The notes under the pieces were generated by a model. That model had not been told where the DNA came from, did no database searches, and saw nothing but the letters and a program-made list of their open reading frames with translations. Shown here in pieces: positions 19,969 to 34,944 of a stretch of 64,000 bases of DNA (position 1 is its first letter; the number at the start of each line of letters is the position of its first letter). Both the position numbers and the translations under genes were made by a program. This stretch comes from Methylocystis echinoides. Lineage in GTDB: Bacteria; Pseudomonadota; Alphaproteobacteria; Rhizobiales; Beijerinckiaceae. The DNA is taken from NCBI RefSeq assembly GCF_040687965.1, contig NZ_CP156084.1, forward strand, positions 3,658,501 to 3,722,500, read 5' to 3'.

Positions 19969-20030
19969 TTCCAAACATCTCGATCGATCCGGCCCCGCGC
20001 AGGCGGGCTACCTCCGAACATGTTTGGAGA
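19969..20030 (+). promoter_or_regulatory. Possible RNA switch in the cold-shock gene leader
   Basis: TCCAAACAT (19970-19978) is the exact complement of ATGTTTGGA (20020-20028), extended one pair by a T-G wobble. The right arm runs into the GGAGA ribosome site just before the ATG at 20035. Folding would mask that site. Structured leaders that open in the cold are known for csp genes; this particular structure is my inference. Confidence 0.45.
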
Positions 20031-20034
20031 CACA

Positions 20035-20244
20035 ATGGCAACTGGCACCGTGAAATGGTTCAACGCCCAGAAGGGCTTCGGCTTCATTCAGCCTGATGCA
20101 GGAGGCGCTGACGTTTTCGTCCACATTAGCGCTGTCGAGCGCGCCGGCTTGGCCGGTCTGCAGGAAGGACAGAAGGTCGATTACGAGGTCATGGTAGACC
20201 GACGCAGCGGCAAAAACTCAGCTGATCAGCTAAAGGCGGTCTAA
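20035..20244 (+). CDS. Cold-shock protein (CspA family)
   Basis: 69 residues: [20 protein letters not shown] and [13 protein letters not shown] carry the RNP1 and RNP2 nucleic-acid-binding motifs. The protein binds single-stranded RNA/DNA as a chaperone. TTTGGAGACACA precedes the ATG. It sits inside the integrated element rather than the core chromosome; csp genes are found in some phages. A strong terminator follows at 20268-20303. Confidence 0.95.
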
Positions 20245-20267
20245 CGTCGCTCCCTCGCCAAAACAGG

Positions 20268-20303
20268 ACGCCCCGACCGTGGATGTATCGGCGGGGCGTT
20301 TTT
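20268..20303 (+). terminator. Terminator of the cold-shock gene (second copy of the hairpin repeat)
   Basis: ACGCCCCG and CCG pair with CGG and CGGGGCGT with a single bulged A and the 9-base loop TGGATGTAT, followed by TTTTT. It shares 26 identical bases (20273-20298) with 14573-14598. Confidence 0.85.
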
Positions 20304-20329
20304 GTGATTTTCAAACAGCGAAGTCTAAT

Positions 20330-20989
20330 ATGGGTGATGCTAAGCGCGGCCAATATAGTCGTGCCGCATTCCTTAAAATTCACCAATGGTGCATTTACTG
20401 CGGCGCGCCGGCAGTCACTACAGACCATTGCCCTCCACGAAGCTTTTTCATCGAAAGAAAATGGCCCGAAAGCTACGAGTTTCCTTGTTGCCAGGCTTGT
20501 AACGATGAGTCCCGCCTCGACGAGCAGGCTATAGCTGTCTTGGTGAGAACCAGCATGGAAGCCCCCTCCGCTATCGCTTTGGAAGAGTGGAAGAAGCTGC
20601 TCCGCGGAATACGGAACAACCAACCCAGGTTGCTCGCGGAATGGGGTGAGCTACGCGGTGTTAGGCTCAAAGCAGCTCTCCGACAGGCCTTCGGTCGCGC
20701 GGCGGATGACTGGCGCTGGGATGGCGGCGGCGTCATAAACATTGGCCCACTTAGTCGGGAAGCATTAAATCGCTTCTCAATAAAGCTTGGAAAGGCACTG
20801 TACTATAGACATACGAATAAACTGTTTCAGGGCACAGTTTATAGCCGCTATATGAATATGTTACTACTCAAAGACCCTATAAAGCAGATGGAAGAATTCT
20901 CTAAAATTGCCCCAGGAAGTCTCCATCTGCACGCGCTCTGGACAATCATTGCGCGAGCAATTTGTCTACATCTACGGCTTCAGCGCTGA
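20330..20989 (+). CDS. HNH/zinc-finger endonuclease-like protein (upstream part of a frameshifted gene)
   Basis: 219 residues from the ATG at 20330. CIYCGAP and CCQACN form a four-cysteine zinc site flanking TTDHCPPRSFF, as in HNH nuclease-like proteins. AT-rich composition contrasts with the neighbours. After about residue 202 (ALW) the sequence turns Leu/Arg-rich and stops; the +1 frame continues a convincing protein to 21167. I read this as an N-terminal fragment after a frameshift, though a naturally shorter protein is possible. Confidence 0.6.
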   Translation: MGDAKRGQYSRAAFLKIHQWCIYCGAPAVTTDHCPPRSFFIERKWPESYEFPCCQACNDESRLDEQAIAVLVRTSMEAPSAIALEEWKKLLRGIRNNQPRLLAEWGELRGVRLKAALRQAFGRAADDWRWDGGGVINIGPLSREALNRFSIKLGKALYYRHTNKLFQGTVYSRYMNMLLLKDPIKQMEEFSKIAPGSLHLHALWTIIARAICLHLRLQR

Positions 20990-21167
20990 GGACAGAATCA
21001 TTTGCGCGTTAGTGCGGTTTACCGATCAGCATGTATTTGAAATAATTGCGGCTGGTTCCGAAGCGACCACTCGCATCGAAGCTCAGTTGGGTTCAACTGA
21101 AGAAGGTGCGGCCGCGTATTTCAAAGCAAAGTGTTCGCTCAAGCACGTCCCTGATGGATTGATCTGA
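20907..21167 (+). pseudogene. Downstream part of the frameshifted HNH gene, or an overlapping small gene
   Basis: The frame opens at a TTG at 20907. Its good coding stretch begins near 20940 with REQFVYIYGFSAEDRII, then ALVRFTDQHVFEIIAAGSEA and AAAYFKAKCSLKHVPDGLI. There is no ribosome site of its own and the start lies inside the HNH gene. The join ...ALW + GQSLREQFVYIYG... would restore one protein of about 280 residues. Confidence 0.45.
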
Positions 21168-21267
21168 CCGTCACGTCCACGGGGCTCATCGCCTGGATGG
21201 CCAAAAGGAGGCTTGCCCACAAGCGGCCTGAAGCCGCGAAATCGAGAAACAACTGGACTCGCACTTA

Positions 21268-21288
21268 TTGGCGGGTCGATTGGCGGGT
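21268..21288 (+). other. Right pair of probable integrase arm-binding repeats
   Basis: TTGGCGGGT at 21268-21276 and 21280-21288, the same 12-base spacing and orientation as the pair at 5955-5975. It lies 64 bases before attR. A protein-binding role is inferred. Confidence 0.55.
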
Positions 21289-21352
21289 TGAAGACGCGAC
21301 ACTTCGGCAAATTGGCTTTGTTTACAGATCGTTAGTGCTATGGCTTGTCGGT

Positions 21353-21368
21353 CTCTCACTCCGACCAT
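21353..21368 (+). repeat. Right attachment-site core (attR)
   Basis: A 16-base identical copy of the tRNA-Pro 3' end, CTCTCACTCCGACCAT, not associated with any tRNA here. It marks the right boundary of the element. Confidence 0.85.
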
Positions 21369-21469
21369 CAAAAAATTCAAAAACCAGACAGAATGCCGTT
21401 AGCCTCGGACCGCGCCCCGCGGGACGAGCGGCGATCGGCGCTCGCCGAGTGCGGCCCCTCGCAGCGGCG

Positions 21470-21730
21470 CTAGTAATTCTCCAATACGAAGCAGTTGAAG
21501 TCTCGTTCGTCGCCATACCGCCATTGGCGCAGGTCGTAGCGATAAAACGTCCTGTGACTTGGGTTGGCGGACAGCAAGAAGAGGCCACAACGGCCGGCGT
21601 AGACCAGATCTTTCGTCCCCGCCCCTCTCCCCAGGGCAAGCGACGGAGTCGCCGCCGCGGCGGCGACGGCCAAAGTCAGGACAAGCACGCTGAATAACCG
21701 CTTGCACAGTTTCGGGCTGCTGCGTCCCAT
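21470..21730 (-). CDS. Small secreted hypothetical protein (86 aa)
   Basis: The start at 21730 gives MGRSSPKLCKRLFSVLVLTL followed by AVAAAAATPSLALG, a clear signal peptide. The mature part has two cysteines (AGRCGLF, DFNCFVLENY) and a YRYDLRQWRYGDE block. Likely periplasmic or exported, perhaps disulfide-bonded. First chromosomal gene right of the element; unknown function. Confidence 0.6.
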   Translation of the reverse strand: MGRSSPKLCKRLFSVLVLTLAVAAAAATPSLALGRGAGTKDLVYAGRCGLFLLSANPSHRTFYRYDLRQWRYGDERDFNCFVLENY

Positions 21731-21832
21731 GCTCGACCTCCGTTTGTCAGAGTCGTCATCAGCAAGAAACAGCCTGTCGGCGCCGATGTTCCGCAAAGGG
21801 CCCCACCATGGCGGCGCAGCTCGACGGCGCGC

Positions 21833-22555
21833 TCAAGCGGTCGCGCCCGCGTCGACCGTGAGCACGGTCCCGGTCACATTGCGAGCTTTTTCGTCGAGCA
21901 GATAAGACACCGCATTGGCGACGTCCTCCGGCGCCGCGAGACGCCGCAGCGCAGCGCGCGCCGCGATCCTCGCGCGATCCGCGGAGTCGAGTTCCGCCGT
22001 CATTTCGGTCTCGATGAAACCAGGCGCCACCGCATTGATGGTGACGCCTACGCGCCCGGCTTCTCGCGACAGTGATTTCGTGAAACCGATCAACCCGGCC
22101 TTGGTGGCGGCATAGACGGACAGGCCATTGTATCCGGTCGACGCAATGATCGAAGAAACGTTCACGATCCGCCCCGCGCTCGCGGACATCATTTGCCTCA
22201 ATACGTATTTGCTCAACATGATCGGCGCCGTCAAATTGATGCGGAGGAGCGTCTCGATTTCGGAATTGTGCATGGTGGCGAGAAGGCCTTGCGTACCCAG
22301 GCCCGCGTTGTTGACGAGCCCGTAAGGCGCGCCGAAGCGCTTCTTCAGGGCAAGCGCGAAAGCCGGGATCGCGTCGAGCTGCGAAAGGTCGAACGCGGCG
22401 AAGGATAAGGCGCCGTCTTTTTCCTCCATCAAGTCGCGCAAGGCGTCGCTCTCCTTGCGGGCGACGGCCGTCACGTGAAAGCCGTCTTCGATCAGCCGCC
22501 GGGATATGGCGAGCCCGAGGCCGCGGCTGGCGCCGGTGACGATGACGTTCCGCAT
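21833..22555 (-). CDS. FabG-like short-chain dehydrogenase/reductase (3-oxoacyl-ACP reductase type)
   Basis: 240 residues. Rossmann TGASRGLGLAIS near residue 8, NNAG near 86, the catalytic Ser in VSSIIAS, YAATK (Tyr and Lys), and the C-terminal GTVLTVDAG typical of FabG. It should reduce 3-oxoacyl groups on a carrier protein with NADPH. The ATG at 22555 overlaps the ligase stop as TGATG, so the two are coupled. Third gene of ACP-ligase-reductase, which implies it works on the product tethered to that ACP. Confidence 0.88.
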   Translation of the reverse strand: MRNVIVTGASRGLGLAISRRLIEDGFHVTAVARKESDALRDLMEEKDGALSFAAFDLSQLDAIPAFALALKKRFGAPYGLVNNAGLGTQGLLATMHNSEIETLLRINLTAPIMLSKYVLRQMMSASAGRIVNVSSIIASTGYNGLSVYAATKAGLIGFTKSLSREAGRVGVTINAVAPGFIETEMTAELDSADRARIAARAALRRLAAPEDVANAVSYLLDEKARNVTGTVLTVDAGATA

Positions 22556-23928
22556 CACTCGCTCCCGCGCAGCAGCTTGCCGCCGGGCGACAGCGGCAAT
22601 GTGGCCACGAAAGTGACCCCGACAGGCGCTTTATGGCGTTCGAGGCGGGCGCGGCAGCTTGCGAGGATCTCCTTTCGCACCACGACTTCGCCCTCAGGCG
22701 GGACGGCCTTGAGCACCACATCCGCGACAATGATGTCGCCGGTGATCGGACTGCGCCGCGCCTTGACGCGCGACATGCGCACCGCCTCATGGCTATTGAT
22801 GACCTGCTCAACTTCCTCGGGATGAACCTTGAGACCGCCGACATTGATCGCGCCGCCGCGCCGTCCTCTGAACAGGATGCGATCGTTGACGCGTTCGACG
22901 AGGTCGTCCGTATCGACGAAGCCGTCGTCATCGACGAGCTTAAAGCCGACCGCGCCCACATAGCGCTCGGCCCTCCGGCGCGACCGCAGGCGCAGCGTTC
23001 CGTCGACGATGCGCAGCTCGACGCCCGGCAGACCATCGAGGTAGCACGCCGGAAACCCCTCGAGTCCGTCGACGACTTCGAACCCCACGCCCGCCTCGGT
23101 CGACGCATAAGCGTGAACGATCTTGGCTTGTGGAAACGCCTTTGCGAGCGCGTCGAGGATGGCGCGGTCCGCAATCTCTCCGGAGAGCCTGACATACCTC
23201 GGGGAGATGCGCGCCGCCTCGCCGCTCATCAGCAAGCGGCGCCAATGCGATGGCGTTCCAGACAGATGCGTTACGCCAAGTCTGGCCATGCGATCAATAT
23301 GGCCAGAGAGCGGCTCGTCGCCATCGGTAATGACAAGCGACGCGCCGCTCATGACCGCGCGCAGGAAGATCTGCATCCCGCCGAACCGTCTGATATCGTA
23401 GAATGTGCTCCACACCGGCGCCGGCGCGCCGCGGTCGCGCGCGGCAAGCGCGGCGGTCAGACTTTCCAACCGATGCGCGACTAGTTTCGGGGCGCCCGTC
23501 GTGCCGGAGGTGGGAAGAATCCATTCCGTGCAGATTGGCGCGCGTCGCAAAGGGGCGTCCGCTCCCGACCGGCTTAGAGCGTAGCGCTCCACGAGCGGAC
23601 CCAGGTCCTCGATACGATCGTCATGGACGACGCCTTCGACGCGAGCTTGCATCATTGCCGACGCCAGTCGCTCGCCTTTGAAATCCGGCGGGACGACGAG
23701 CATTGACGCGGCGACGCCGTCGAGCGCCAGCATCGCCCGCGCCGCATCGAATTGCGATGAGACGGAGATCAGCGCGGATTTGCCCGCAAACGCCGCCGCC
23801 TCCGGGAGCGCGGTCAGAGCAAGCGCCTCACGCCAGCCGATCTCGCGATCCGGCCCAAAAAGCCCCGCCTCGGCCGTTGGATTCGCATCCCGCAGAAGCT
23901 GGCGCAGGTCAGACGCCGGCATTTGCAT
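22555..23928 (-). CDS. AMP-forming acyl/aryl ligase (ANL superfamily), probable loader of the adjacent ACP
   Basis: 457 residues, slightly short for the family. PTSGTTGAPKLVAH is the phosphate-binding loop, YASTEAG the A5 motif, DTDDLVE the A7 Asp, GGLKVHPEEVE the hinge, and LPLSPGGKLLRGSE contains the C-terminal catalytic Lys. It activates a carboxylate as an adenylate and transfers it to CoA or phosphopantetheine. It overlaps the ACP gene by 20 bases, so transfer to that ACP is likely. The substrate pocket cannot be read by eye. Confidence 0.85.
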   Translation of the reverse strand: MQMPASDLRQLLRDANPTAEAGLFGPDREIGWREALALTALPEAAAFAGKSALISVSSQFDAARAMLALDGVAASMLVVPPDFKGERLASAMMQARVEGVVHDDRIEDLGPLVERYALSRSGADAPLRRAPICTEWILPTSGTTGAPKLVAHRLESLTAALAARDRGAPAPVWSTFYDIRRFGGMQIFLRAVMSGASLVITDGDEPLSGHIDRMARLGVTHLSGTPSHWRRLLMSGEAARISPRYVRLSGEIADRAILDALAKAFPQAKIVHAYASTEAGVGFEVVDGLEGFPACYLDGLPGVELRIVDGTLRLRSRRRAERYVGAVGFKLVDDDGFVDTDDLVERVNDRILFRGRRGGAINVGGLKVHPEEVEQVINSHEAVRMSRVKARRSPITGDIIVADVVLKAVPPEGEVVVRKEILASCRARLERHKAPVGVTFVATLPLSPGGKLLRGSE

Positions 23929-24154
23929 AAAGCGCGACGAATTCCGCCAAAGTTACCGGAAAATAAACTTCCTCCGACGCCGTGAAGGGGTCGACGCCGA
24001 ATTCATCCTCCAGCCGGGCGACGATGATCGCAAAGCAAAGCGAATCCAGCCCGGCATCCGCCAAAACCGCGCGATCCGTGAGCGGCGCGAGCTCTCTTTG
24101 TTGCTCCAAGGCCACCTGCTGCATGACCCGAACGATCGTCGACCCGACGTCCAT
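23909..24154 (-). CDS. Acyl carrier protein (ACP1)
   Basis: 81 residues from the ATG at 24154, which has AGAGG eight bases upstream; a GTG at 24163 is the alternative. AGLDSLCFAIIVARLEDEFG contains the DSL site whose Ser takes phosphopantetheine. The ACP helix pattern is otherwise normal. It heads the leftward ACP-ligase-reductase operon and diverges from the acyltransferase gene at 24264. It is not the housekeeping AcpP (no DSLDTVELVM-type motif). Confidence 0.85.
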   Translation of the reverse strand: MDVGSTIVRVMQQVALEQQRELAPLTDRAVLADAGLDSLCFAIIVARLEDEFGVDPFTASEEVYFPVTLAEFVALYANAGV

Positions 24155-24263
24155 CGCCGCCACCTCTTCATTCTCGGCTAAGAAAGCTTGGCTATTCCTA
24201 GCTTGAGCAGAGCGGAGATTTGTTAAACCGCTTCGATTTTCGAAGAGCGATGGTTAATCGCGC

Positions 24264-25139
24264 ATGAGCAATGCGATGTCGCGGCGACTACGCTGCAGGC
24301 AGATCACCGACGTTGACGCGCCATCGCTCGTCCCGTTGCTGGCGAGCGGCTTTCGTACGCGCTCCGCATCCTACTGGTCGCACGCGCTGCGGGTTCTGGC
24401 GGATCGCGACGCGCCCGCCGGCTATCCGCGCTTCGGCTATCTGCTGGAGGCCGGCGACGGCGTTCCCGCAGGAGTCGTCCTTACGATCTTCCACCGCCGC
24501 ACCGACGGGGAAATCTATTGCAATATTTCCAGCTGGCACGTCACGAAAACCCTGCAAGGCTATGCCTCCCTCCTCATAGCCGCGGCACTGCGGCATAGGG
24601 AAGTCGTCTATCTCAACATCTCCCCGGCAGAATCCACTTGGCCCATCATCGAGGCTCAGGGCTTTGGGCGCTATTGCGAGGGTCAGATGCTGGCGGCGCC
24701 GGCGCTCAGCGCCGTGACCCGCTCGGCGCGCATCCTGGCCTTTGATTCTTGCAGCGACGCTCAATCTGCACTGCCGAAAGACGAGCGGGCGCTGATGCGT
24801 GAACACGTGCAGAAATACGCCTGCATCGGGCTCGTCGTTCAAGATGGCGTTGAGACTCGCCCTTTCCTGTTTCTGCCGAGACGAGTCTCGTTGTCGCCGG
24901 CGAGGACAGTGCAACTGGTTTATTGTCGCAACGTCGCGGATTTCAGTCGCTATGCGGGCGCCCTCGGGCGGGCGCTTCTCCGACATGGCTACTTAACGGC
25001 GCTCGTCGACGCAAACGGGAAACTGCCGGGCGTGGCGGGCCGCTACTTCAGAAATCGAGGCCCGAAATATTTCAAGGGACCTCGTCCGCCTCACCTCGGC
25101 GACCTCTCCTTTTGCGAAAATGTGCTCTTCGGACCCTGA
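24264..25139 (+). CDS. GNAT-like acyltransferase of the biosynthetic cluster
   Basis: 291 residues. The first half (ITDVDAPSLVPLLASGF, GVVLTIFHRRTDGEIYCNIS, LIAAALRHREVVYLNISPAE, WPIIEAQGFGRYCEGQ) follows the GNAT fold, with strand-helix order and a C-terminal arm, but lacks a strong Q/RxxGxG acetyl-CoA loop. The second half may be a degenerate repeat of the fold. Possibly transfers an acyl group from a carrier protein to an amine. 12 bases before the ThDP gene, so likely cotranscribed. Medium certainty on fold, low on substrate. Confidence 0.6.
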   Translation: MSNAMSRRLRCRQITDVDAPSLVPLLASGFRTRSASYWSHALRVLADRDAPAGYPRFGYLLEAGDGVPAGVVLTIFHRRTDGEIYCNISSWHVTKTLQGYASLLIAAALRHREVVYLNISPAESTWPIIEAQGFGRYCEGQMLAAPALSAVTRSARILAFDSCSDAQSALPKDERALMREHVQKYACIGLVVQDGVETRPFLFLPRRVSLSPARTVQLVYCRNVADFSRYAGALGRALLRHGYLTALVDANGKLPGVAGRYFRNRGPKYFKGPRPPHLGDLSFCENVLFGP

Positions 25140-25151
25140 GCTGGCGACGCA

Positions 25152-26810
25152 ATGAAGACAATTTCAGCCGCGCAAGCGCTTGTCGAGCAGCTCATCGTCA
25201 ACGGCGTATCTCATATCTTTTGCGTTCCCGGCGAGAGCTATCTCTCGGTCCTCGACGCCTGCTATGATCAAGACATCGAGCTGACGGTGTGCCGCAATGA
25301 GGCGGGCGCCGCGATGATGGCCGACGCTTATGGAAAAGCGACGGGTCGCCCGGGCGTTTGCTTCGTCACGCGCGGACCCGGGGCGGCCAATGCATTCGCC
25401 GGAGTACATATCGCGCAGCATGACTCAACGCCGATGATCCTTTTCATTGGGCAGATCGAGCGGCGTCACCGCGACCGTGCGGCCTTTCAGGAAGTCGATT
25501 ACCGGGCCATGTTCGGCGGTCAGACGAAGTGGACCGCGGAGATCGACGATGGCCGGCGGATCGTCGAATATGTCAATCGCGCCTTTCACGTCGCCTTGGC
25601 GGGGCGCCCCGGCCCGGTCGCCCTTGCGCTGCCAAAGGACATGCTCGAGGACCGGGTCGCCCCTTGCGTCTGCCCAGCAGCGGCGCCCATCGAAACCGCG
25701 CCGAACGACGACTCGCTCGATGCGCTCGCATCGATGATCGCCGCCGCGGAGCGGCCATTTGTTATCCTTGGCGGAACAAGGTGGGACGAGGCGTCGTCGC
25801 GCCGCATGATGGAATGGGCGAACGCTTTCGACATGCCCGTCGCGACGAGCTACCGGCGTCTCACGCTCTTCGATCCGCTCCATCGGTGCTACGCGGGCGA
25901 TCTTGGCCTTGCCGCAAATGCGAAGCTTGTCCAGCGCATCAAGCGGAGCGACTTGCTCATCCTCATCGGCGGCCGATTGGGCGAGATACCGTCACAGGGC
26001 TACACGCTCCTGGACATTCCCGCGCCTCGCTCGCGCTTCGTGCATGTCTATCCACAAGACGAAGAATTCGGACGCGTCTACGCGCCGACCCTCGCCATTC
26101 ACGCCTCGCCGAAGCCCTTTGTAAGCGCCCTCTTCAAGCTCATGCCGCCAGAGCCGCGCCCCTGGCGCGAAGACACCGCGGCGGCGCATCGCGACTATCT
26201 GGATTTTTCCCGCGCCTTCGACCCGTCGGCGGACGTCGATCTGGCGCAAACGATGATCTGGCTCAGCGACACGCTCCCGCCTGACGCGATTGTTTGCAAC
26301 GGCGCCGGAAACTACGCCTCCTGGATCCATCGCTACTTTCGGTTCCGACGCTTTGGAACGCATTTTGCGCCCACTTCCGCCACCATGGGCTATGGCGTGC
26401 CAGCGGCCGTTGCGCTTCAGCGCCTGCATCCTTCACGCCTCGTCGTCTCGATCAACGGCGACGGCGACTTCTTGATGAACGGCCAGGAGTTTGCAACGGC
26501 CGTTCAATACGGCCTGCCCATCGTCGTCATCATTTGTGACAATGGGAGCTACGGGACAATTCGCATGCATCAGGAGCGTCATTATCCTGCGCGCGTAATT
26601 GCGACCGATCTCAAGAATCCCGATTTCGCCGCCTATGCGCGCGCCTTCGGCGGCTTTGGCGTGCGCGTTGAACGCACGCAAGACTTTCCCGAAGCCTTCA
26701 CGACGGCCCGCGCCTCCGGCCAACCTTCGATCATCCATTTGAGGATGGATCGCGACCGCATCTCGCCGACCTTGACGCTCTCCGGCCTGCGCGCAGGCGC
26801 TCAACGCTAA
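25152..26810 (+). CDS. Thiamine-diphosphate enzyme, acetolactate-synthase-like
   Basis: 552 residues with the three-domain layout of IlvB-type enzymes. The activating Glu is in CRNEAGAAMMADAYGK (Glu50), and INGDGDFLMNGQEF to VVIICDN is the ThDP/Mg motif near 435-465. The flavin-binding middle-domain region is present, but the usual acetolactate synthase regulatory partner (IlvH) is absent. It should decarboxylate a 2-oxo acid and may ligate the resulting C2 or larger unit to another carbonyl. Its stop (26808-26810) abuts the stop of the convergent aminotransferase. Clustered with carrier proteins, so it is unlikely to be the housekeeping enzyme. Confidence 0.85.
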   Translation: MKTISAAQALVEQLIVNGVSHIFCVPGESYLSVLDACYDQDIELTVCRNEAGAAMMADAYGKATGRPGVCFVTRGPGAANAFAGVHIAQHDSTPMILFIGQIERRHRDRAAFQEVDYRAMFGGQTKWTAEIDDGRRIVEYVNRAFHVALAGRPGPVALALPKDMLEDRVAPCVCPAAAPIETAPNDDSLDALASMIAAAERPFVILGGTRWDEASSRRMMEWANAFDMPVATSYRRLTLFDPLHRCYAGDLGLAANAKLVQRIKRSDLLILIGGRLGEIPSQGYTLLDIPAPRSRFVHVYPQDEEFGRVYAPTLAIHASPKPFVSALFKLMPPEPRPWREDTAAAHRDYLDFSRAFDPSADVDLAQTMIWLSDTLPPDAIVCNGAGNYASWIHRYFRFRRFGTHFAPTSATMGYGVPAAVALQRLHPSRLVVSINGDGDFLMNGQEFATAVQYGLPIVVIICDNGSYGTIRMHQERHYPARVIATDLKNPDFAAYARAFGGFGVRVERTQDFPEAFTTARASGQPSIIHLRMDRDRISPTLTLSGLRAGAQR

Positions 26811-27701
26811 TCAGGACGCCGCCACGAGAGAGGCCCGCGAATGCGCGAAATCCCAGTAGAGCGACCGCGCCCTCTTGTAGAACGGCCCCGCCGCCAAATA
26901 ACGGCCGTCGATTTGCGACATTGGCGCGACCTTTTGAAAATTGCCCGTCGAGAAAATTTCGTCGGCGCTGAGGAAATCCTCATAACGCAGCGTCTTCTCG
27001 ACAACCTCGACGCCGTCCGCGCGAAGAAGACCGATGACGCGTTGACGCGTGATCCCATTCAGGAAGGCGCCATTCGGCGCCGGCGTGAAAACGACGCCAT
27101 CCCTTCCGAGAAAGGCGTTGGCATTGGCGAATTCCGCAACGTCGCCGAGCAGGTCGCGCATCAGGCAATTATCGAAGCCGCGCTTACCCGCCTCGATGAG
27201 CGCCCGCGCGCCATTTGCGTAATGACAACCAGCTTTGGCGCCTACCGGCGCCGTTTCCGAACTGGGTCGGCGGAAAGGCGACAGCGTAATCGCGCCCCCT
27301 CTCGGCGTCGGCATCGGCGCCTCGTAGATCGTCAGGCACCAGTTCGTCGACGCAGGATCGAAGCGCACGCCGCCGCCCAATCCATCCTCCGCCCAATACA
27401 TTGGCCGGATGTAGAGCGCCGCGTCGGGCGCGAATTTTCGCAGCCCATCCTCCACAAGCTCGCGCCACTGCGCGACGCTCAAGACCGGTTCGAGCAACAT
27501 TTCGCGCGCCGAATGATTGATCCGCGCCAGATGCAGATCGAGGTCGGGCGTCACGCCCTCGAAGGCGCGGGCCCCGTCGAACACTGTCGACCCGAGCCAC
27601 GCGCCATGCGTGCGTGCGCCAAGGATCGGCGTATTGCCTTCGCGCCATCTCCCCTGGAAAAACGTCCAGGTGGGCGAAAGCAAACCGGGCGCGGTCGCCA
27701 T
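26811..27701 (-). CDS. Class IV PLP aminotransferase (branched-chain/D-amino acid/aminodeoxychorismate lyase fold)
   Basis: 296 residues from the ATG at 27701 (GAGGG upstream). Lys156 in APVGAKAGCHYANGARAL is the PLP lysine, and GDVAEFANANAFL is the conserved Glu/Asn segment. PMYWAEDGLGGGVRF and TGNFQKVAPM fit BCAT-like enzymes. It should transfer an amino group between a 2-oxo acid and an amino acid. It is the last gene of a leftward operon with cupin, amino acid:CP ligase and dehydrogenase. The 2-oxo substrate may come from or feed the ThDP enzyme encoded next to it. Confidence 0.85.
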   Translation of the reverse strand: MATAPGLLSPTWTFFQGRWREGNTPILGARTHGAWLGSTVFDGARAFEGVTPDLDLHLARINHSAREMLLEPVLSVAQWRELVEDGLRKFAPDAALYIRPMYWAEDGLGGGVRFDPASTNWCLTIYEAPMPTPRGGAITLSPFRRPSSETAPVGAKAGCHYANGARALIEAGKRGFDNCLMRDLLGDVAEFANANAFLGRDGVVFTPAPNGAFLNGITRQRVIGLLRADGVEVVEKTLRYEDFLSADEIFSTGNFQKVAPMSQIDGRYLAAGPFYKRARSLYWDFAHSRASLVAAS

Positions 27702-27711
27702 GACGGCCCCC

Positions 27712-28179
27712 TCAAGCGTCACTGAACATCGACGGGGCATCGCCTTCCTTATGCGAAGCGCCGATAAGTCTCCGCAGCTTTCTCAGGACCCGCGCCATGA
27801 ACATCAGCGGCGCCGGCACAGGGGTGCGGCAGAAAGCGACCTTGCGAATGTAAGTCTCGACACGCCAAACCGCGTGTGACCCTGCGCGAAAAAGCATATG
27901 GTCGCCAGCTTGGATGACGCGCTCCACGCCGCTGTCGTCCCGGATGACCGCTGAGCCTTCGAGAACATAGACTGTCTCGTCGACGTTATAACGCCAGTGA
28001 AACACCGCGGTCGTACAATCCCACACCAGCGCGGTCGCGGTCCCGTCGAGACTGACCGACAAGATAAAGTTACGCGCAACCGGAGCGCCTTCGATCACCC
28101 AGGCGGGGTTGATCGGACAAGGCTTCATCTCGACGTCTTTCGCGGTCGAAAAGACAAGCTTTTTGTCAAACGCCATCAT
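27712..28179 (-). CDS. Cupin-domain protein (cupin_3/DUF861 type)
   Basis: 155 residues from ATG ATG at 28179 (AAAGG seven bases upstream). The core TAVFHWRYNVDETVYVLEGS, then IQAGDHMLFRAGSHAVWRVE, fits the single-domain cupin of the ureidoglycine-aminohydrolase-like group: partial metal-site spacing, with one His and one Glu in the first motif. A basic C-terminal tail follows (VLRKLRRLIGASHKE). It may be an enzyme or a stabilising subunit. Ten bases upstream of the aminotransferase, so same operon. Confidence 0.75.
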   Translation of the reverse strand: MMAFDKKLVFSTAKDVEMKPCPINPAWVIEGAPVARNFILSVSLDGTATALVWDCTTAVFHWRYNVDETVYVLEGSAVIRDDSGVERVIQAGDHMLFRAGSHAVWRVETYIRKVAFCRTPVPAPLMFMARVLRKLRRLIGASHKEGDAPSMFSDA

Positions 28180-28193
28180 CGTTGACCTTTCCC

Positions 28194-29108
28194 TCAATCG
28201 ATTTGCAGCGTTTTGCGCAAGCGATGCGGCCAGTCTTCCAGACACAGGCCGTGGATCGAAAACAGGGCGATTGCCAGCCGGTCCATTCCGAAGGCGACGC
28301 AGGCGGAATGCGCGGTCTCGCCATTCTCGTCGATCAGTTCCCAGGTCTTGCCGAAGTGATCTCGATGATAATTGAAGCTCATGCAGGCCGTCGGCGCGCC
28401 TTCCGCGCGGACGGGGATCAGCAACTCGAACTTCAGCGCCTGCTCGACCTGATTGGCGGCCAACAACTGCCCGACGCGACCGAAGAACGGGTCGCTCGCG
28501 CGATCGAATTCGAAAGGAAGCTCCAGTTCTTCCGCGATCGACGTCGCGCGCTGCATCCATCCCTCGCGGAAGGTCGCGACCTCCGCCGGGGAGCCGATGC
28601 GCACGAATTCCCGCATGCGGAACGACTGCAGTCGATCGAGATCGCGCGACGGTTCATGACGGAAGCAATCCGCCGCGACGTCGAAGGTCAAGCCCTCGGC
28701 AGGTATGCGCCCTCTCGCCGCCGCGATTGGATAGACGGGATAGCAGGCGGCCGGACTCAAGACGAGCTCGGCGGCGCGCGCATCCTGCGTCCAGTCGGCG
28801 CCCCGCTTCGCGCGCTCGACGGACGCGGCGATATCCGCCTCGGACCCATGCAGACAGCAGACGCAGCCGAGAAGCTGGGGAAAACTGTTCAAGTAACCCT
28901 GCCTTTCGAGCTGCCGCAGGCTCATCACCGGCGGAAACCGAAAGACTTCCGCGCTCTCGGGACGATGGCGTGAAATCAGCCGTTGCAACGCATCGACGAC
29001 ATCCTCGTATTGACGAGTCCGCGCATAGACTCCCGCTACGCCCATCGAATCGAAGAGCCTGTCGAGAATGGCTTCGTCAGTCCCGCGGGATTTAACTGCG
29101 TGGGTCAT
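28194..29108 (-). CDS. Amino acid:[carrier protein] ligase (seryl-tRNA-synthetase homologue)
   Basis: 304 residues; much shorter than SerRS because the tRNA-binding arm is missing. Class II motif 2 is FRMREFVRIG and motif 3 is AFGMDRLAIAL. Cys122, Glu167 and Cys270 fall where the zinc ligands of the characterised Bradyrhizobium enzyme lie (Cys131, Glu176, Cys279 as I recall; all offset by nine). Such enzymes adenylate small amino acids (Gly, Ala) and load them onto a dedicated carrier protein instead of tRNA. GAGGG precedes the ATG. It overlaps the dehydrogenase gene by 4 bases, and the divergent ACP2 is the likely acceptor. Confidence 0.88.
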   Translation of the reverse strand: MTHAVKSRGTDEAILDRLFDSMGVAGVYARTRQYEDVVDALQRLISRHRPESAEVFRFPPVMSLRQLERQGYLNSFPQLLGCVCCLHGSEADIAASVERAKRGADWTQDARAAELVLSPAACYPVYPIAAARGRIPAEGLTFDVAADCFRHEPSRDLDRLQSFRMREFVRIGSPAEVATFREGWMQRATSIAEELELPFEFDRASDPFFGRVGQLLAANQVEQALKFELLIPVRAEGAPTACMSFNYHRDHFGKTWELIDENGETAHSACVAFGMDRLAIALFSIHGLCLEDWPHRLRKTLQID

Positions 29109-30316
29109 TGGCGCGCCCTCGTAATCGCTTCCGGAACGCCGCCAATCAAACAAGGGGGTCCGACAGTCGAGAGAATGCGAGAGTTGTTGATCATGATGGA
29201 GGCCGAAAGAATGTCACGCAGCGGTCGCGTCAGGCTGAACTCACTGTCGTTGCGATACCCAGAGATTCCACAGGCCTGAAACGCCTGCATCACGGTCGCA
29301 ATCGCTCCTTCCGAAGCGGAAACCTTGAGAAGGTTGAGCGACGTCTGATAGCCGATTTCATCAAGCCGCTCCGGCTCGGGGGCGCGATCGAGATAGTCGG
29401 CGATGGCGGAATCGACGAGCGCGACGAGATTCATCAGGGATAGCGACGCCTGCGTCGCCAGCGGCGCGCCCGGCGGGGGAGCGCCCTTTTGCGCGCGCGA
29501 GATCTTGCGAACGAACGTTTGCGCGCGTGAGACCGCTCCCGCGGCGATCCCCGCCCAACAGGCGGCCCAAAGCAGATGGGTTACGGGAACCATGCTGCGA
29601 CGATGAATCCGATCGTAGGGTTCTGAGAACGCCTGCTCCCTGTCGCCTTGCGCGAGCAGCCGGAACCCTTCGGAACAGGTTCCGCGCATGCCCATGACGT
29701 CCCATGTCGCTGTGGGGCGCAGCTGGTAGTCTTCCTTGAAGAAGAGCGCGAGCGTCTGATCGCTCGGCAAGGACTCCGGCGAACGCCGCGCCGTTGTTAC
29801 GATCGCGTCGGCGGCGGCCCCGTAAGAGACGACCGAGGCGTCGCGGTCGAGCGAGATTCGGTCGCCGTGGCGAACGAGCGCCGCCGCGCTGTTTCGCACA
29901 TCCGCCCCGTTTTTCCCTTCTGTCGTAGACGATGCGAGCAGCTTCTGCTCGAAGCCGATGCGACGCAGCGCCGCGAAGCAGCGGGCGTTTTCATCCGCAT
30001 GATTGGCGACGCAGGCAACGTTGGCGGCGTGCATGGCGTAAATCATGGAGGTTGACGAACAGACCCGGCCGAGGGCGTAGCAGAGTTGCGCCGCATCGGC
30101 GACGCTCCGCCCCTCTCCCCCAAAGGCTGGAGACAAGAGAATGCCGAGCAGCCTCTGCTTCTTCAGTTCTTCAAACGCTTCGGTCGGAAATCGTGCGTCG
30201 TGGTCGACCACATCGGCGAATTTCGCTGCGACGGCCGCCGCCGCGGCGACCCGCGCGGAAAAGTCTAGCGGCGTCCTCGCCTCCAGTTCCGTCGAAACAT
30301 TGCCAGCCATCGACAT
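29105..30316 (-). CDS. Acyl-CoA-dehydrogenase-like flavoprotein, probably acting on a carrier-bound amino acid
   Basis: 403 residues with the full ACAD layout: helical N domain (LLGILLSPAFGGEGRSVADA), middle beta domain with DVMGMRGTCSEGFRL, and C-terminal helices with QAFQACGISGYRNDSEFSL and TRPLRDILSA. Relatives oxidise thioesters on carrier proteins as well as on CoA; prolyl-S-carrier dehydrogenases are the known example. Because it is translationally coupled (ATGA) to the amino acid:CP ligase, oxidation of the aminoacyl thioester is the simplest reading. ATG at 30316 or 30310. Confidence 0.85.
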   Translation of the reverse strand: MSMAGNVSTELEARTPLDFSARVAAAAAVAAKFADVVDHDARFPTEAFEELKKQRLLGILLSPAFGGEGRSVADAAQLCYALGRVCSSTSMIYAMHAANVACVANHADENARCFAALRRIGFEQKLLASSTTEGKNGADVRNSAAALVRHGDRISLDRDASVVSYGAAADAIVTTARRSPESLPSDQTLALFFKEDYQLRPTATWDVMGMRGTCSEGFRLLAQGDREQAFSEPYDRIHRRSMVPVTHLLWAACWAGIAAGAVSRAQTFVRKISRAQKGAPPPGAPLATQASLSLMNLVALVDSAIADYLDRAPEPERLDEIGYQTSLNLLKVSASEGAIATVMQAFQACGISGYRNDSEFSLTRPLRDILSASIMINNSRILSTVGPPCLIGGVPEAITRARQ

Positions 30317-30503
30317 GGACGCGCCTCATTGAGAAAACCCCGCAGCTCAAACTTGGCGTCTAATTGTTAACGTTCAATTCGTTCCCGCAAACAGTCAAGA
30401 TTAAGGTTACCGAGGGAAAGGCTGTGAATTCAGTAGCTTCGCATCCCATCAGGCTGGTATGAGGTTTTCCAGTAGAGGCCAGCGAAGTATTGGAGGTCGG
30501 TTC

Positions 30504-30752
30504 GTGAACCCGTTGACCGCAAACGCCGCCAGCCGCATTCACGCCCTCCTTGGCGCTTTCCTGCCCGAAGCGGAAGCAGTTGCGCGCAGCCAGGATCTGC
30601 GCGAGCTCGGCCTGACGTCGCTCCAGATGGTCAATCTGATGCTCTCGATAGAAGCCGAATTCGACGTGCTGATTCCAGCTTCGAAGCTGCTGCCGACCAA
30701 TTTTCGAAGCATCGAAACGATTGAGAGTCTGCTGAGCGAGATCGCTCGCTGA
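30504..30752 (+). CDS. Carrier protein (ACP2), likely acceptor for the amino acid ligase
   Basis: 82 residues from a GTG at 30504 with GGAGG seven bases upstream; an ATG at 30459 would add 15 residues. RELGLTSLQMVNLMLSIEAE carries the phosphopantetheine serine (GLTSL). Divergent from the dehydrogenase-ligase operon, an arrangement that in other genomes links these ligases with their carrier protein. Distinct in sequence from ACP1. Confidence 0.85.
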   Translation: MNPLTANAASRIHALLGAFLPEAEAVARSQDLRELGLTSLQMVNLMLSIEAEFDVLIPASKLLPTNFRSIETIESLLSEIAR

Positions 30753-30775
30753 GTGCGGCGGCGACGCCCCTCACG

Positions 30776-31714
30776 CTAGTCCTGGCGCGCCTTTCGGAGG
30801 GCGTCGACGGTAGACAGCCAGTCTCGATAGAGCGCGATTGCATCCTCTTTCCAAGGCGCACCGTAGCTCTGTCCGGCAAGCAGGCTTTCAAGGGTCCGGT
30901 TTGCGTCGGCCACGCAACCGCATCGAATGCGCGCCGTCAGTTCGTCGAGTCGCGCCGACAAGGCCGCATCAAAGACCCGCTCTGGCTGGGCTGGATAGGT
31001 GGACTGCGCGCCATCGAGAAAGCGAAGCACATCGCGCCGATATTCCTTAGCGAGCGTGTCAGCGTCATATTCGGGATGTCCCTGGAGAAACACGAACAGG
31101 CTCGGCTCCCGGCGCCAAAACATATCGACGCCCGCGACATCCGAATTTGAACCGATCTGAAAGCCATAACGTTCCAACGCGTCCCGGTCCAAGCCGTTGC
31201 AGCGCGAGTGCGGAACGATGCGTGTCCCGGCGCGCTCCCCGCTCCACTCCGGGGCGTAGTTCGTGAACTGAAGAACCCCGCTCATCTTGCGGGTCTCCGG
31301 GCGCCGCTCGATACCGGATAAATGCAGGGTCGCCGCGTGTGCGGCGAGGCACGACCAGATTGCGGCGCGCGTATGCTCCCGCGCCCAGTCGACGAGCCTT
31401 TGGATGTGCGGCCAGTATGGTTCGCGCTCCAGCCTCTCTGCGCGCGGTTCAGACCCGGTGACGATCACCGCATCGGCCCCGCGTCGATAAAGCGCCTCGA
31501 TGGCCTCGTGGCTGCGCGCAAGATAGCGACGCGCCTTCTCCGATCGGTCGAGACCGGGAAGCGCGTAGCAGCGCCATCTCACGGCCCGCCCCGCCGCCCC
31601 CGCGCGCACGAGCCTTGCAAACTGCGCCTCCGTGGCGGAAAGCGCCGCATCAGGCATATTGTTGACGAACGCCACCTCGAGCACAGCGCCGTCGCCGCGC
31701 TTGAGCCTCCTCAT
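30776..31714 (-). CDS. MetA-like homoserine O-acyltransferase family protein
   Basis: 312 residues of the glutamine-amidotransferase-like HTS fold. The nucleophile is Cys122 in IWSCLAAHAATLHL, with His213 and Glu215 in QGHPEYD, matching the catalytic triad spacing of MetA. The canonical CWGAQA block is replaced by SCLAAHA. It should acylate homoserine with succinyl- or acetyl-CoA. The ATG overlaps the metY stop (31711-31714), making a sulfhydrylation pair. Confidence 0.8.
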   Translation of the reverse strand: MRRLKRGDGAVLEVAFVNNMPDAALSATEAQFARLVRAGAAGRAVRWRCYALPGLDRSEKARRYLARSHEAIEALYRRGADAVIVTGSEPRAERLEREPYWPHIQRLVDWAREHTRAAIWSCLAAHAATLHLSGIERRPETRKMSGVLQFTNYAPEWSGERAGTRIVPHSRCNGLDRDALERYGFQIGSNSDVAGVDMFWRREPSLFVFLQGHPEYDADTLAKEYRRDVLRFLDGAQSTYPAQPERVFDAALSARLDELTARIRCGCVADANRTLESLLAGQSYGAPWKEDAIALYRDWLSTVDALRKARQD

Positions 31715-33012
31715 TCTGCGGCGTCCCGACGAGGCGCGGAAGACGCCGCGCCCAACGCCTGGTCGAGATCCGCCAGAATGTCGTCGATATGCTCGATGCC
31801 GACGCTGAGACGCAGCATCTCGGGCGTCACGCCCGCCTTCTCCTGCTCCGCGGCAGTCATTTGACGATGGGTCGTGGATGCGGGATGGCAGGCGAGCGAT
31901 CTCGTGTCGCCGATATTCACCAACCGCTTGATGAGACGAAGCGCATCGTAGAGACGCTTGCCTGTCTCAACTCCGCCCTTCACCCCGAAAGTGAGCAAAG
32001 ACGGCGGCCGGCCGTCCAGATATTTCTGTGCGAGTTCGTAGTAAGGATTACCGGGAAAGCCCGCGTAATGCACCCAGGCGACGCGCGGATGGTCGCGCAA
32101 GAATTCCGCGACGCGGCGAGCGTTGTCGACGTGGCGCTCGACGCGCACGGCCACGGTCTCCAGGCCTTGCAGCAGCAGGAAGGCGTTGAGCGGCGACAGC
32201 ACGGCTCCCGTCGTGCGCTGATAGACGCTCCGCGCGCGGGCGATGTAGGCGCTCTGCGCAAACCGGTCGACATAGACGAGACCATGGTAGGAAGCGTCGG
32301 GCTGATTGAAGGTCGGAAAGCGCTCGGGATATTGGCCCCACGGGAAGCGCCCGCCATCCACGATGGCGCCGCCGAGCGTCGTTCCATGTCCGCCCATGAA
32401 CTTGGTCAGGGAGTGGACGACAATATCGGCGCCATGCTCGATCGGGCGAAGCAGAATGGGCGTCGGCACCGTATTGTCGACGATCAAGGGAACGCCATGC
32501 GCATGCGCGACATCGGCGAGAGCGGCAATGTCGCTGATCGCGCCTGCGGGATTGCCGACGCTCTCGCAAAACACGGCCTTGGTGTCGGCGTCGATCGCCG
32601 CCGCCATGTCTGCGGGCGAGTCGCTCGCGGCAAAGCGCACTTTCACGCCTTGTCGCGCCAGAACATGTTGAAGCAGCGTATGGGTTGTCCCATAGAGAGT
32701 CGGCGCGGCGACGATGTCCCCGCCAGCGTCCGCAACATTGGCGAAAGCGTAATAGAGCGCCGCCTGGCCCGTCGCGACCGCGAGCGCGCCGACCCCGCCT
32801 TCGAGTGCGGCGACGCGGCGCTCCAGCACGGCCGTCGTCGGATTGGCGATGCGGCTGTAGCGAAAGCCCTCCTCCTCGAGATCGAACAGCGCCGCCGCGT
32901 GATCCGCGCTGTCGAACTCATAGGCCACGGTTTGATAAATCGGCACGGCCACCGCATGCGTCGCTGGATCGCCGTCATAGCCTGCGTGGATTGCAACCGT
33001 TTCGTTATGCAT
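31711..33012 (-). CDS. metY: O-acetylhomoserine (thiol)-lyase / sulfhydrylase
   Basis: 433 residues, the usual MetY length. The PLP lysine is in VHSLTKFMGGHGTTLGG. YQTVAYEFDSADHAAALF, SRIANPTTAVLERR and the C-terminal HPASTTHRQM block are family marks. It converts O-acyl-homoserine plus sulfide to homocysteine. Coupled to the MetA-like gene that makes its substrate. The start at 33012 follows a weak ribosome site. Confidence 0.9.
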   Translation of the reverse strand: MHNETVAIHAGYDGDPATHAVAVPIYQTVAYEFDSADHAAALFDLEEEGFRYSRIANPTTAVLERRVAALEGGVGALAVATGQAALYYAFANVADAGGDIVAAPTLYGTTHTLLQHVLARQGVKVRFAASDSPADMAAAIDADTKAVFCESVGNPAGAISDIAALADVAHAHGVPLIVDNTVPTPILLRPIEHGADIVVHSLTKFMGGHGTTLGGAIVDGGRFPWGQYPERFPTFNQPDASYHGLVYVDRFAQSAYIARARSVYQRTTGAVLSPLNAFLLLQGLETVAVRVERHVDNARRVAEFLRDHPRVAWVHYAGFPGNPYYELAQKYLDGRPPSLLTFGVKGGVETGKRLYDALRLIKRLVNIGDTRSLACHPASTTHRQMTAAEQEKAGVTPEMLRLSVGIEHIDDILADLDQALGAASSAPRRDAAE

Positions 33013-33188
33013 CCGCCCGCCAAGTACAAAAATTTAAGCTCGGACCATGCAGGGGATTGCTTAAAATCTCCGTGCGCAAAGTTTTCGCCGGCCCGGGGCG
33101 AAATTGCCATCTGCGGGCCTTTTTCTGGAAATTATCTAAGACGGGTGGACCCTTCAGGTTGAAGGAGCAAGCGCAGGACGCGGATCGG

Positions 33189-34919
33189 ATGGCTGATCGT
33201 TCGGTTAACAAAGCCTTTGTTCGCGCGTTGAAACTCACCGCCGCGATCAATGAGAACCCGCGCCTGGTCTTGCCGCTCGCCTTCGACGAGGTCGCGCGCC
33301 AACGCGGCGATGCGCCTGCGCTCCTCTCCGAGCGCGGCGATCTCACCTTTCGTGAACTCTCGGAAAGGTCGCTGCGCTATGCGCAATGGGCTCTGGCGCA
33401 GGGTCTCGCCAAGGGCGACGCCGTGGCGCTGATAATGGAAGGGCAGCCCGAATATGTCGCCATCTGGCTCGGCTTGACGCGCATCGGCGTCGTGGTCGCG
33501 CTGATCAATCACCATCTCACGGGCGCGGCGCTGGCCCATTGCATCCGGGTCGCCGAGCCGCGTCTGATCCTCTGCTCGACCAAGTTTCGCCGCGCCTGCG
33601 AAGACGTCGCGTCAGAGCGGCTCTCCGTCATTGCGTGCGACGAGGGGTTCGAACGCGATCTTGCCCGGCAATCCGCCGAGCCGCCGGCGCTCCCCGAGTC
33701 CGCCCGGCCCACGCTCTCCGACCATGCGCTCTACATTTACACTTCCGGCACGACCGGCTTGCCTAAAGCGGCGATCGTCTCCCATCGGCGCTTGATGAAT
33801 TGGGCGCTGTGGTTCCAGGGCCTCATCGACGTCACGCCCGACGACCGCATGTATGACTGTCTGCCGCTCTATCACTCGGTCGGCGGCGTGGTCGCGGTGT
33901 GGTCGACGCTGCTCGGGGGCGGCGCCGTCGTGTTGCGTGAGCGATTCTCGGCGAGCGCCTTCTGGAGCGACGTTGTCGCCCATCGCTGCACGCTGTTCCA
34001 ATATATTGGCGAGCTGTGTCGCTATCTCATCCATGCCCCGCCCTGCCCCGAAGAGCGCCAGCACAGACTGCGCATGACGATCGGCAATGGGCTGAGGCCG
34101 GAAGTCTGGCCCGTTTTTCAGCGACGATTTGCGATCCCGCGCATTCTCGAATTCTACGCGGCGACGGAAAGCAATTTCTCTCTCTACAATGTCGAAGGCG
34201 AACCCGGGGCCATAGGCCGGATTCCGGCCTTCCTCGCAACGCGGCATCCCGTGCGGCTCGTCAGATATGACGTCGAGACAGAGACGCCTCTGCGTGGCGA
34301 CGATGGTTTCTGCGTCCCCTGCGGGCCGAATGAAGCGGGCGAGGCGATCGCCCGCATCGCGAATGATTTCGAGGGCTACCTCGATTCCGAGGCCTCGCAG
34401 AAGAAAATCTTGCGCAACGTCTTCGCATCTGGCGACGCCTGGATGCGCAGCGGCGATCTGATGCGCAAGGATGCGCGCGGCTTTTTTTATTTTCTCGACC
34501 GCATCGGCGACAGCTTCCGCTGGAAGGGCGAGAACGTATCGACGGCGGAAGTCGCGCAGGCGATTGCCGCCTATCCCGGCGTTCTCGACGCCGCCGTCTA
34601 TGGCGTAGAAGCGCCAGGCTGCGACGGGCGGGCCGGCATGGCGGCGATTGTCGCGGGCGAGACGTTCGAGATCGACGGGCTTTACCCCTATCTCGCCGCG
34701 CGCCTGCCGGGTTACGCGCGGCCGCTGTTCCTGCGGCTGTCGCGCGAGCTGGTTTTGACCGCAACGTTCAAACACCGGAAGCGCGAGCTTGCCGATCAGG
34801 GATTTGATCCTCGACTCATCCCTGACCCTGTCTTTTTCGCGTCTTCGAAGCAGTCTATATATGTTCCGCTGGACGCCTCGCTTTTTTTGAAGATCGTCGC
34901 AGGCGCCGTCCAACTCTAG
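33189..34919 (+). CDS. Acyl-CoA synthetase (FATP/very-long-chain type)
   Basis: 576 residues from the ATG at 33189; the frame is open to 32685, but that part is a shadow of metY. YTSGTTGLPKAAIVSH is the AMP loop, YAATESN the A5 motif, SGDLMRKD the hinge region, and LTATFKHRKRELADQGFD the C-terminal lysine region of FATP-like enzymes. It should activate a long-chain or unusual fatty acid with ATP and CoA. Followed by the amidase after 25 bases, so probably cotranscribed. Confidence 0.85.
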   Translation: MADRSVNKAFVRALKLTAAINENPRLVLPLAFDEVARQRGDAPALLSERGDLTFRELSERSLRYAQWALAQGLAKGDAVALIMEGQPEYVAIWLGLTRIGVVVALINHHLTGAALAHCIRVAEPRLILCSTKFRRACEDVASERLSVIACDEGFERDLARQSAEPPALPESARPTLSDHALYIYTSGTTGLPKAAIVSHRRLMNWALWFQGLIDVTPDDRMYDCLPLYHSVGGVVAVWSTLLGGGAVVLRERFSASAFWSDVVAHRCTLFQYIGELCRYLIHAPPCPEERQHRLRMTIGNGLRPEVWPVFQRRFAIPRILEFYAATESNFSLYNVEGEPGAIGRIPAFLATRHPVRLVRYDVETETPLRGDDGFCVPCGPNEAGEAIARIANDFEGYLDSEASQKKILRNVFASGDAWMRSGDLMRKDARGFFYFLDRIGDSFRWKGENVSTAEVAQAIAAYPGVLDAAVYGVEAPGCDGRAGMAAIVAGETFEIDGLYPYLAARLPGYARPLFLRLSRELVLTATFKHRKRELADQGFDPRLIPDPVFFASSKQSIYVPLDASLFLKIVAGAVQL

Positions 34920-34944
34920 CTGCCGAGCTGAAAAGGTTGCCGTG

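Follow-up and report, generated by a model that had tools for sequence, protein, structure and literature searches.

A conserved gene set with two discrete carrier proteins around a Bll0957-type amino acid:[carrier protein] ligase in Methylocystis echinoides

The closest described relative of the system considered here is amino acid:[carrier protein] ligase 1 of Bradyrhizobium (Bll0957), known with its carrier from Mocibob et al. 2010 and 2013, as cited in PMC9437257; ligases of this family are reported to load alanine as well as glycine, and their biological role was described as unknown in 2022 (PMC9437257). In a phaR mutant of Bradyrhizobium diazoefficiens grown microaerobically, the transcripts of bll0957 and of bll0958, an acyl-CoA dehydrogenase (ACAD) gene, both rose 3.0-fold, with an increase at the protein level too (PMC10888616); metZ (bll1105), asd (blr4687) and a branched-chain aminotransferase (bll7459) rise in the same 30-gene table (PMC10888616, Table 1), and these three are possible co-regulated partners of bll0957/bll0958. 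A homologue of Bll0957 is encoded in the stretch of Methylocystis echinoides DNA analyzed here (64,000 nucleotides of contig NZ_CP156084.1, hereafter the window), within a set of genes at positions 21833–36111 that includes two carrier proteins, ACP1 and ACP2. This two-carrier gene set is real and widespread, and the mechanism proposed for it is in part inferred.

The window ligase (28194 to about 29108, minus strand) is a full-length match to its family (PRK07080/NF005479), with 445 bits against a curated cut-off of 357, and it matches the Bll0957 structures 3mey and 4h2w with 413 bits. Residues C137, E182 and C285, numbered on the open reading frame (ORF) 28194–29153, match the zinc ligands Cys-Glu-Cys of Bll0957 in the alignment, and all ten homologues compared have them unchanged.

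The original prediction, made on the window alone, had joined ten genes between 21833 and 30752 in one pathway and proposed a check of their neighborhood in other genomes. All ten were found with the coordinates and families it had given (window ORFs, Pfam and NCBIfam matches), and the grouping held in 80 loci, the best of 588 confirmed by a contig scan with the ligase alignment; unlike it, the scan with the single ACAD-like protein as query confirmed 0 loci. The 80 loci come from many Bradyrhizobium, from Rhodopseudomonas infernalis, Bosea, Methylocapsa and Caulobacter, and from metagenome-assembled genomes (MAGs) of Alpha-, Beta- and Gammaproteobacteria, together with one MAG labeled Gemmatimonadetes. 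The ACAD-like gene and the ligase are present in all 80, ACP2 in 73 and a GNAT-like gene in 49, so that the predicted small-amino-acid ligase is indeed grouped with ACP2 and the flavoenzyme across many genomes; they are followed by a MetY-like enzyme (CysMet, 34), a homoserine O-acyltransferase (HTS, 33), a FATP-type acyl-CoA ligase (30), a stand-alone AMP-forming ligase (AMPlig, 30), ACP1 (29) and a short-chain reductase (SDR, 29), and by a class IV aminotransferase (AT4, 13), a thiamine diphosphate (ThDP) enzyme (11) and a cupin (5). Because many of these loci are short, absences among them set lower bounds on conservation.

In a subset of 24 non-Bradyrhizobium loci, chosen by the author of the analysis mostly for length, the ACAD-like gene and the ligase occur in 24, ACP2 in 23 (beside the other two), CysMet in 20, AMPlig, SDR and the FATP-type ligase in 18 each, ACP1 in 17, HTS in 13, the ThDP enzyme in 9, and AT4 and the cupin in 4 each, while gene order and orientation vary widely. 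Regarding the flanking control ORFs, left of 21833 or right of 36111 (n = 11, with hisD and purA as genuine genes), ten were found at 0/24 loci and the cold-shock gene at 1/24, with a score threshold higher than that used for the short ACPs and the cupin, and with some control ORFs that may not be genes. Since the set is conserved in the 80 loci and the flanking control genes are not, its grouping goes beyond chance. The complete cluster occurs in one genome of the same genus, and all of it but the amidase in a genome of family f188; in Bradyrhizobium-type genomes, every part is present but split in three loci (ACP2-ACAD-ligase-GNAT, FATP-ACP1-AMPlig-SDR and CysMet-HTS). The cluster of the original prediction is real, but its right border fell short: the set runs to about 36111, with HTS, CysMet and the FATP-type ligase as three core genes it had missed, whereas the ThDP enzyme, the aminotransferase and the cupin are optional. 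Other partners are conserved outside the window, namely an alpha/beta hydrolase (18/24), a pyridoxal phosphate (PLP) decarboxylase (8/24) and a SnoaL-like protein (7/24); in four MAG loci of Gamma- and Betaproteobacteria, the last two replace the GNAT-like protein, the ThDP enzyme and the aminotransferase.

The association extends to genomes where the genes are not neighbors. Among 397 genomes sampled from the order of the host, 24, the host included, have a window-type ligase (≥57% identity, ≥381 bits), as distinct from the type-2 ligases (44–53% identity, ≤343 bits), the dividing line having been set after the score gap was seen. AMPlig (≥381 bits) is present in 24/24 genomes with the window-type ligase versus 2/373 of the others (G574 and G641), or 26/397 in total (Fisher p = 1.7e-36, a value that ignores shared ancestry). 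Within one genus, four genomes have both genes and four have neither, so that presence and absence are concordant; in genome G361 a distance of 1.4 Mb separates the two genes, and co-occurrence persists without linkage.

As for the ACAD-like flavoenzyme (29105–30316, minus strand), the fold and the flavin region are in place: it matches PF02771, its model (pLDDT 88.9) finds ACADs by Foldseek with TM scores of about 0.7–0.8, the SSTTEG stretch is conserved, and His247 and Arg211 are invariant. Where the catalytic glutamate is expected, in the segment xYEGTxQI, the 31 homologues have IMINNDRI or a closely similar sequence, and isoleucine takes the glutamate position in every one of them; M(I/V)(N/S)NDRI is also found in seven type-2 relatives. 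None of the 31 homologues has an acidic residue at the position of MCAD-376 (Ile) or of IVD-254 (Ala/Thr/Ser), both positions being deduced from sequence alignment and not from structure superposition; the C-terminal segment gave no usable alignment with PDB sequences. Because the subfamily is devoid of the catalytic glutamate, ordinary desaturation is unlikely; its sequence suggests that amine oxidation or N-oxygenation of a tethered amino acid would fit better. Overall, fold and profile scores are about equally close to dehydrogenases and monooxygenases. The analogy with prolyl-carrier oxidases, advanced in the original prediction, was dropped because the glutamate is absent, and the scores of the enzyme against the curated RedW/PigA families are 29–31 bits, with cut-offs of 500–650 (29 versus 650 for RedW).

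ACP2 (30459–30752, plus strand; PF00550, 2.8e-8), the presumed partner of the ligase, reaches 52 bits with NF005480, below its cut-off of 72. A relation with AmcB of cispentacin, whose paper describes type II polyketide synthase (PKS)-like enzymes, was rejected, as the 30 bits of ACP2 with NF058660 (cut-off 80) reflect general ACP similarity and no ketosynthase is seen here.

The second carrier belongs to module B, which has the SDR at its core and also includes AMPlig, the GNAT-like protein and the FATP-type ligase. The SDR (21833–22558, minus strand; PF00106, 9e-52) is a FabG-like member of the 3-oxoacyl-ACP reductase family and is kept beside AMPlig (22555–23928, minus strand; PF00501, 1e-21, and PF13193), the presumed loader of ACP1, with the conserved motifs TFYDIRRyGGlQ and GTPSHWR; ACP1 itself (23909–24163, minus strand; PF00550, 2.7e-5) conserves the GlDSLxFA motif. 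The FATP-type ligase (about 33198–34919, plus strand) is of the FadD6 type (PRK08279; NF006134, 720 bits, cut-off 625). At two loci (L171 and L172), in genomes without the window-type ligase, module B adjoins an MFS transporter.

HTS (30776–31714, minus strand; PF04204, 5e-47, 161 bits) is MetA-like and has the catalytic Cys and His-x-Glu residues in the conserved SCLAAHA and QGHPEY motifs. CysMet (31711–33012, minus strand; PF01053, 9e-126; TIGR01326, 601 bits, cut-off 495) is a PLP-dependent gamma-substitution enzyme similar to MetY and O-acetylhomoserine (OAH) sulfhydrylases, with 7kb0, an OAH sulfhydrylase, as its closest solved relative and FUB7 also high. The host additionally encodes a MetX-type acyltransferase (470 bits, where the strict cut-off is 500), along with four more PF01053 enzymes of full length; hence, its methionine synthesis need not depend on HTS and CysMet alone, and these copies look specialized, with substrates predicted from family membership.

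The optional genes lie between the two carriers: the ThDP enzyme (25152–26810, plus strand) of the acetolactate synthase superfamily (PRK08199; NF006052, 827 bits, cut-off 539); AT4 (26811–27740, minus strand, start likely near 27701; PRK13356, NF009896, 450 bits, cut-off 262); and the EutQ-like cupin (27712–28182, minus strand; PF05899, 3e-17), the start of which was reassigned from the sequence to about 28182 because the ORF 27712–28560 is over-extended. At the right end, the amidase (34942–36111, plus strand; PRK08310, NF006169, 428 bits, cut-off 391) is probably a local addition, kept in the same-genus genome and found at 0/24 other loci. ATGA overlaps at the ACAD/ligase and HTS/CysMet junctions point to translational coupling. 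The larger apparent overlaps arise from over-extended ORFs, with starts near 28182 for the cupin and near 29108 for the ligase. Gene calling relied on third-position GC, and small genes may have been missed. To the left of the cluster, a prophage or its remnant includes a phage integrase (5967–7145) and a tail tape-measure protein (12038–14419); at 20001–22000 the G+C content falls to 57% from about 63% around it, and the ORFs 20279–20989 and 21197–21697 of this stretch have no Pfam match.

Regarding the coupling step, no condensation or ketosynthase domain was found by Pfam search in the called genes at 21833–36111, in agreement with the original prediction of a two-carrier set free of nonribosomal peptide synthetase (NRPS) or PKS modules; the ketosynthase search was restricted to the cluster, since FabB/F-type enzymes would always match genome-wide. 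The Pfam Condensation domain is also missing from the whole host genome, and from four other genomes searched, which excludes NRPS-type coupling in trans to the sensitivity of Pfam; two genes of the phosphopantetheinyl transferase family (PF01648) are present in the host. Part of the loci have a fairly conventional candidate for this step, the GNAT-like protein (24264–25139, plus strand). It has no Pfam family, and its profile gave a single chance match among PDB sequences (E 0.61); its AlphaFold model (mean pLDDT 93.6) has instead a tandem GNAT fold, with MAB_4324 (7q3a, E 2.4e-9) as the top Foldseek match, and Eis and N-myristoyltransferase also found. The acyl-CoA motif R/Q-x-x-G-x-G/A seems degenerate, with R-x-Y/F-A-x-L in most sequences of an alignment read by eye and not on structures. 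The protein accompanies module B also where the window-type ligase is absent, which suggests that it acts with ACP1 or with acyl-CoA derived from the FATP-type ligase; it is the best candidate for amide formation in alphaproteobacteria.

Taken together, these genes may constitute a pathway dedicated to a small molecule and built on a pair of discrete carrier proteins, a reading given somewhat less than an even chance. In its favor are the recurrent clustering in changing order, the co-occurrence beyond linkage, the specialized look of HTS and CysMet, the joint rise of bll0957 and bll0958 in the phaR mutant, the loss of the ACAD base, the tandem GNAT fold and the missing condensation domain. 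By analogy with its homologue, for which this activity is known, the Bll0957-type ligase would adenylate glycine, perhaps alanine, and load it on ACP2; the ACAD-fold flavoenzyme, devoid of the glutamate that would form a carbanion, would then attack the amine of the carrier-bound amino acid, giving an imino- or N-hydroxy-acyl thioester by oxidation and not a desaturated product. In parallel, AMPlig would charge ACP1 with an acid, to be reduced by the FabG-like SDR, while HTS would acylate homoserine, or a relative of it, and the MetY-like enzyme would swap the gamma-acyloxy group for a nucleophile to yield an amino-acid unit of four carbons. An acyl-CoA would come from the FATP-type ligase and, where present, the tandem GNAT would transfer an acyl group from carrier or CoA to an amine, likely forming an amide; the ThDP enzyme, the aminotransferase and the cupin would be lineage-specific tailoring enzymes.

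Several points weigh against this pathway. The three sub-clusters need not feed one product, HTS and CysMet could partly serve methionine supply, and module B exists without the window-type ligase in G574 and G641; the GNAT was undetected by profile in 10/13 genomes, most of them picked for its apparent absence and one of type 2, and it is not the universal coupling enzyme because several of these genomes have the rest. The set may represent two or three independent small pathways that some genomes co-locate (glycine/ACP2/ACAD, acyl/ACP1/SDR/GNAT/FATP, and a homocysteine-forming HTS-MetY pair), which is possible but doubtful: it agrees with the three separate loci of Bradyrhizobium-type genomes, with the type-2 ligases, which have an ACP and an ACAD and, in place of the remaining genes, DUF1839 and glycoside hydrolase neighbors, and with module B standing alone in G574, or with a type-2 ligase elsewhere in G641, but not with the co-occurrence of window-type ligase and AMPlig in 24/24 genomes even when unlinked, their concordance within one genus, and the repeated re-clustering across distant lineages. 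Regarding chance grouping without a common function, it is contradicted by both conservation and co-occurrence; no point in its favor was found, and it deserves almost no credence.

The flavoenzyme is a further point of weakness, since the dehydrogenase 7p98 has threonine at the glutamate position: the base may sit elsewhere, and the loss of the motif is suggestive rather than conclusive. A true dehydrogenase with an unusual base could convert alanine into dehydroalanyl-ACP2, to which a thiol (homocysteine via HTS/MetY) or another nucleophile adds; the ACAD fold and scores, the loading of alanine besides glycine reported for family ligases (PMC9437257), and the thiols made by MetY-type enzymes would all suit it, but with 0/31 homologues having an acidic residue at either base position, this route is unlikely. 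As for the scheme of the original prediction, in which the units on the two carriers are joined or modified by the ThDP enzyme and the aminotransferase, the cluster includes both genes here and also in its closest relative, but with 9/24 and 4/24 of the non-Bradyrhizobium loci they are dispensable, which disqualifies them as a general coupling step. Several loci of Gammaproteobacteria lack both within reach and have a PLP decarboxylase and a SnoaL-like protein in their stead; this scheme is quite improbable.

Returning to the dedicated two-carrier pathway, the searchable literature, a scope that does not reach the original ligase paper, yielded no described pathway joining a Bll0957-type ligase with the neighboring enzymes. 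A tentative and rather speculative extension is that the set stands for a widespread and undescribed kind of natural-product pathway. In it, glycine would be amine-oxidized on its carrier by a base-less ACAD, and an assembly free of condensation and ketosynthase domains would link it with the acid on ACP1 and with a gamma-substituted amino acid derived from homoserine; if true, such pathways would supply the role so far missing for the carrier ligases that resemble aminoacyl-tRNA synthetases. In any case, the gene set defines some nine core partners for Bll0957-type ligases in culturable bacteria, Bradyrhizobium, Rhodopseudomonas, Bosea and Methylocapsa among them, and its flavoenzyme is a candidate for unprecedented flavin chemistry on an amino acid held by a carrier.

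Compared with known systems, Bll0957 is the nearest, being a close homologue with the same zinc-ligand positions and an ACAD gene, bll0958, of adjacent locus tag; the earlier work dealt with the isolated ligase and its carrier, whereas here the ligase is tied to a second carrier, AMPlig, SDR, HTS/MetY and a FATP-type ligase. The type-2 loci of Rhizobium, Azospirillum and others (ACP-ACAD-ligase-DUF1839-GH2) share the three-gene core and the ACAD motif, but their ligase is only about 44–53% identical, and in the order sample their genomes have no AMPlig except G641, where the type-2 ligase is at a separate locus; their context, on Rhizobium and Azospirillum plasmids, comprises the ACP, ACAD, ligase, DUF1839 and a GH2-type protein with alpha/beta hydrolases. 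The prolyl-carrier dehydrogenases RedW/PigA (4irn) are likewise ACAD-fold flavoenzymes, and the window enzyme, like them, would presumably have an amino acid on a carrier as its substrate, but it reaches 37 bits with them by profile and has no catalytic glutamate. Class D flavin monooxygenases and nitrososynthases (3mxl, 4zxv, DszC) do without the dehydrogenase base, and the window ACAD matches them with 49–52 bits, within the range of many dehydrogenase matches; the substrates known for them, sugars or thiophenes, differ from an aminoacyl carrier. PLP-dependent gamma-substitution is used in secondary metabolism by RtxA of rhizobitoxine, CndF and FUB7, which resemble the present case in having an OAH-sulfhydrylase-like enzyme within a gene cluster, with FUB7 among the best solved relatives, whereas by sequence the window CysMet is an ordinary member of the OAH/O-acetylserine sulfhydrylase subfamily. 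In conclusion, the system is a fresh variant of biosynthesis on discrete carrier proteins and not a categorically new one.

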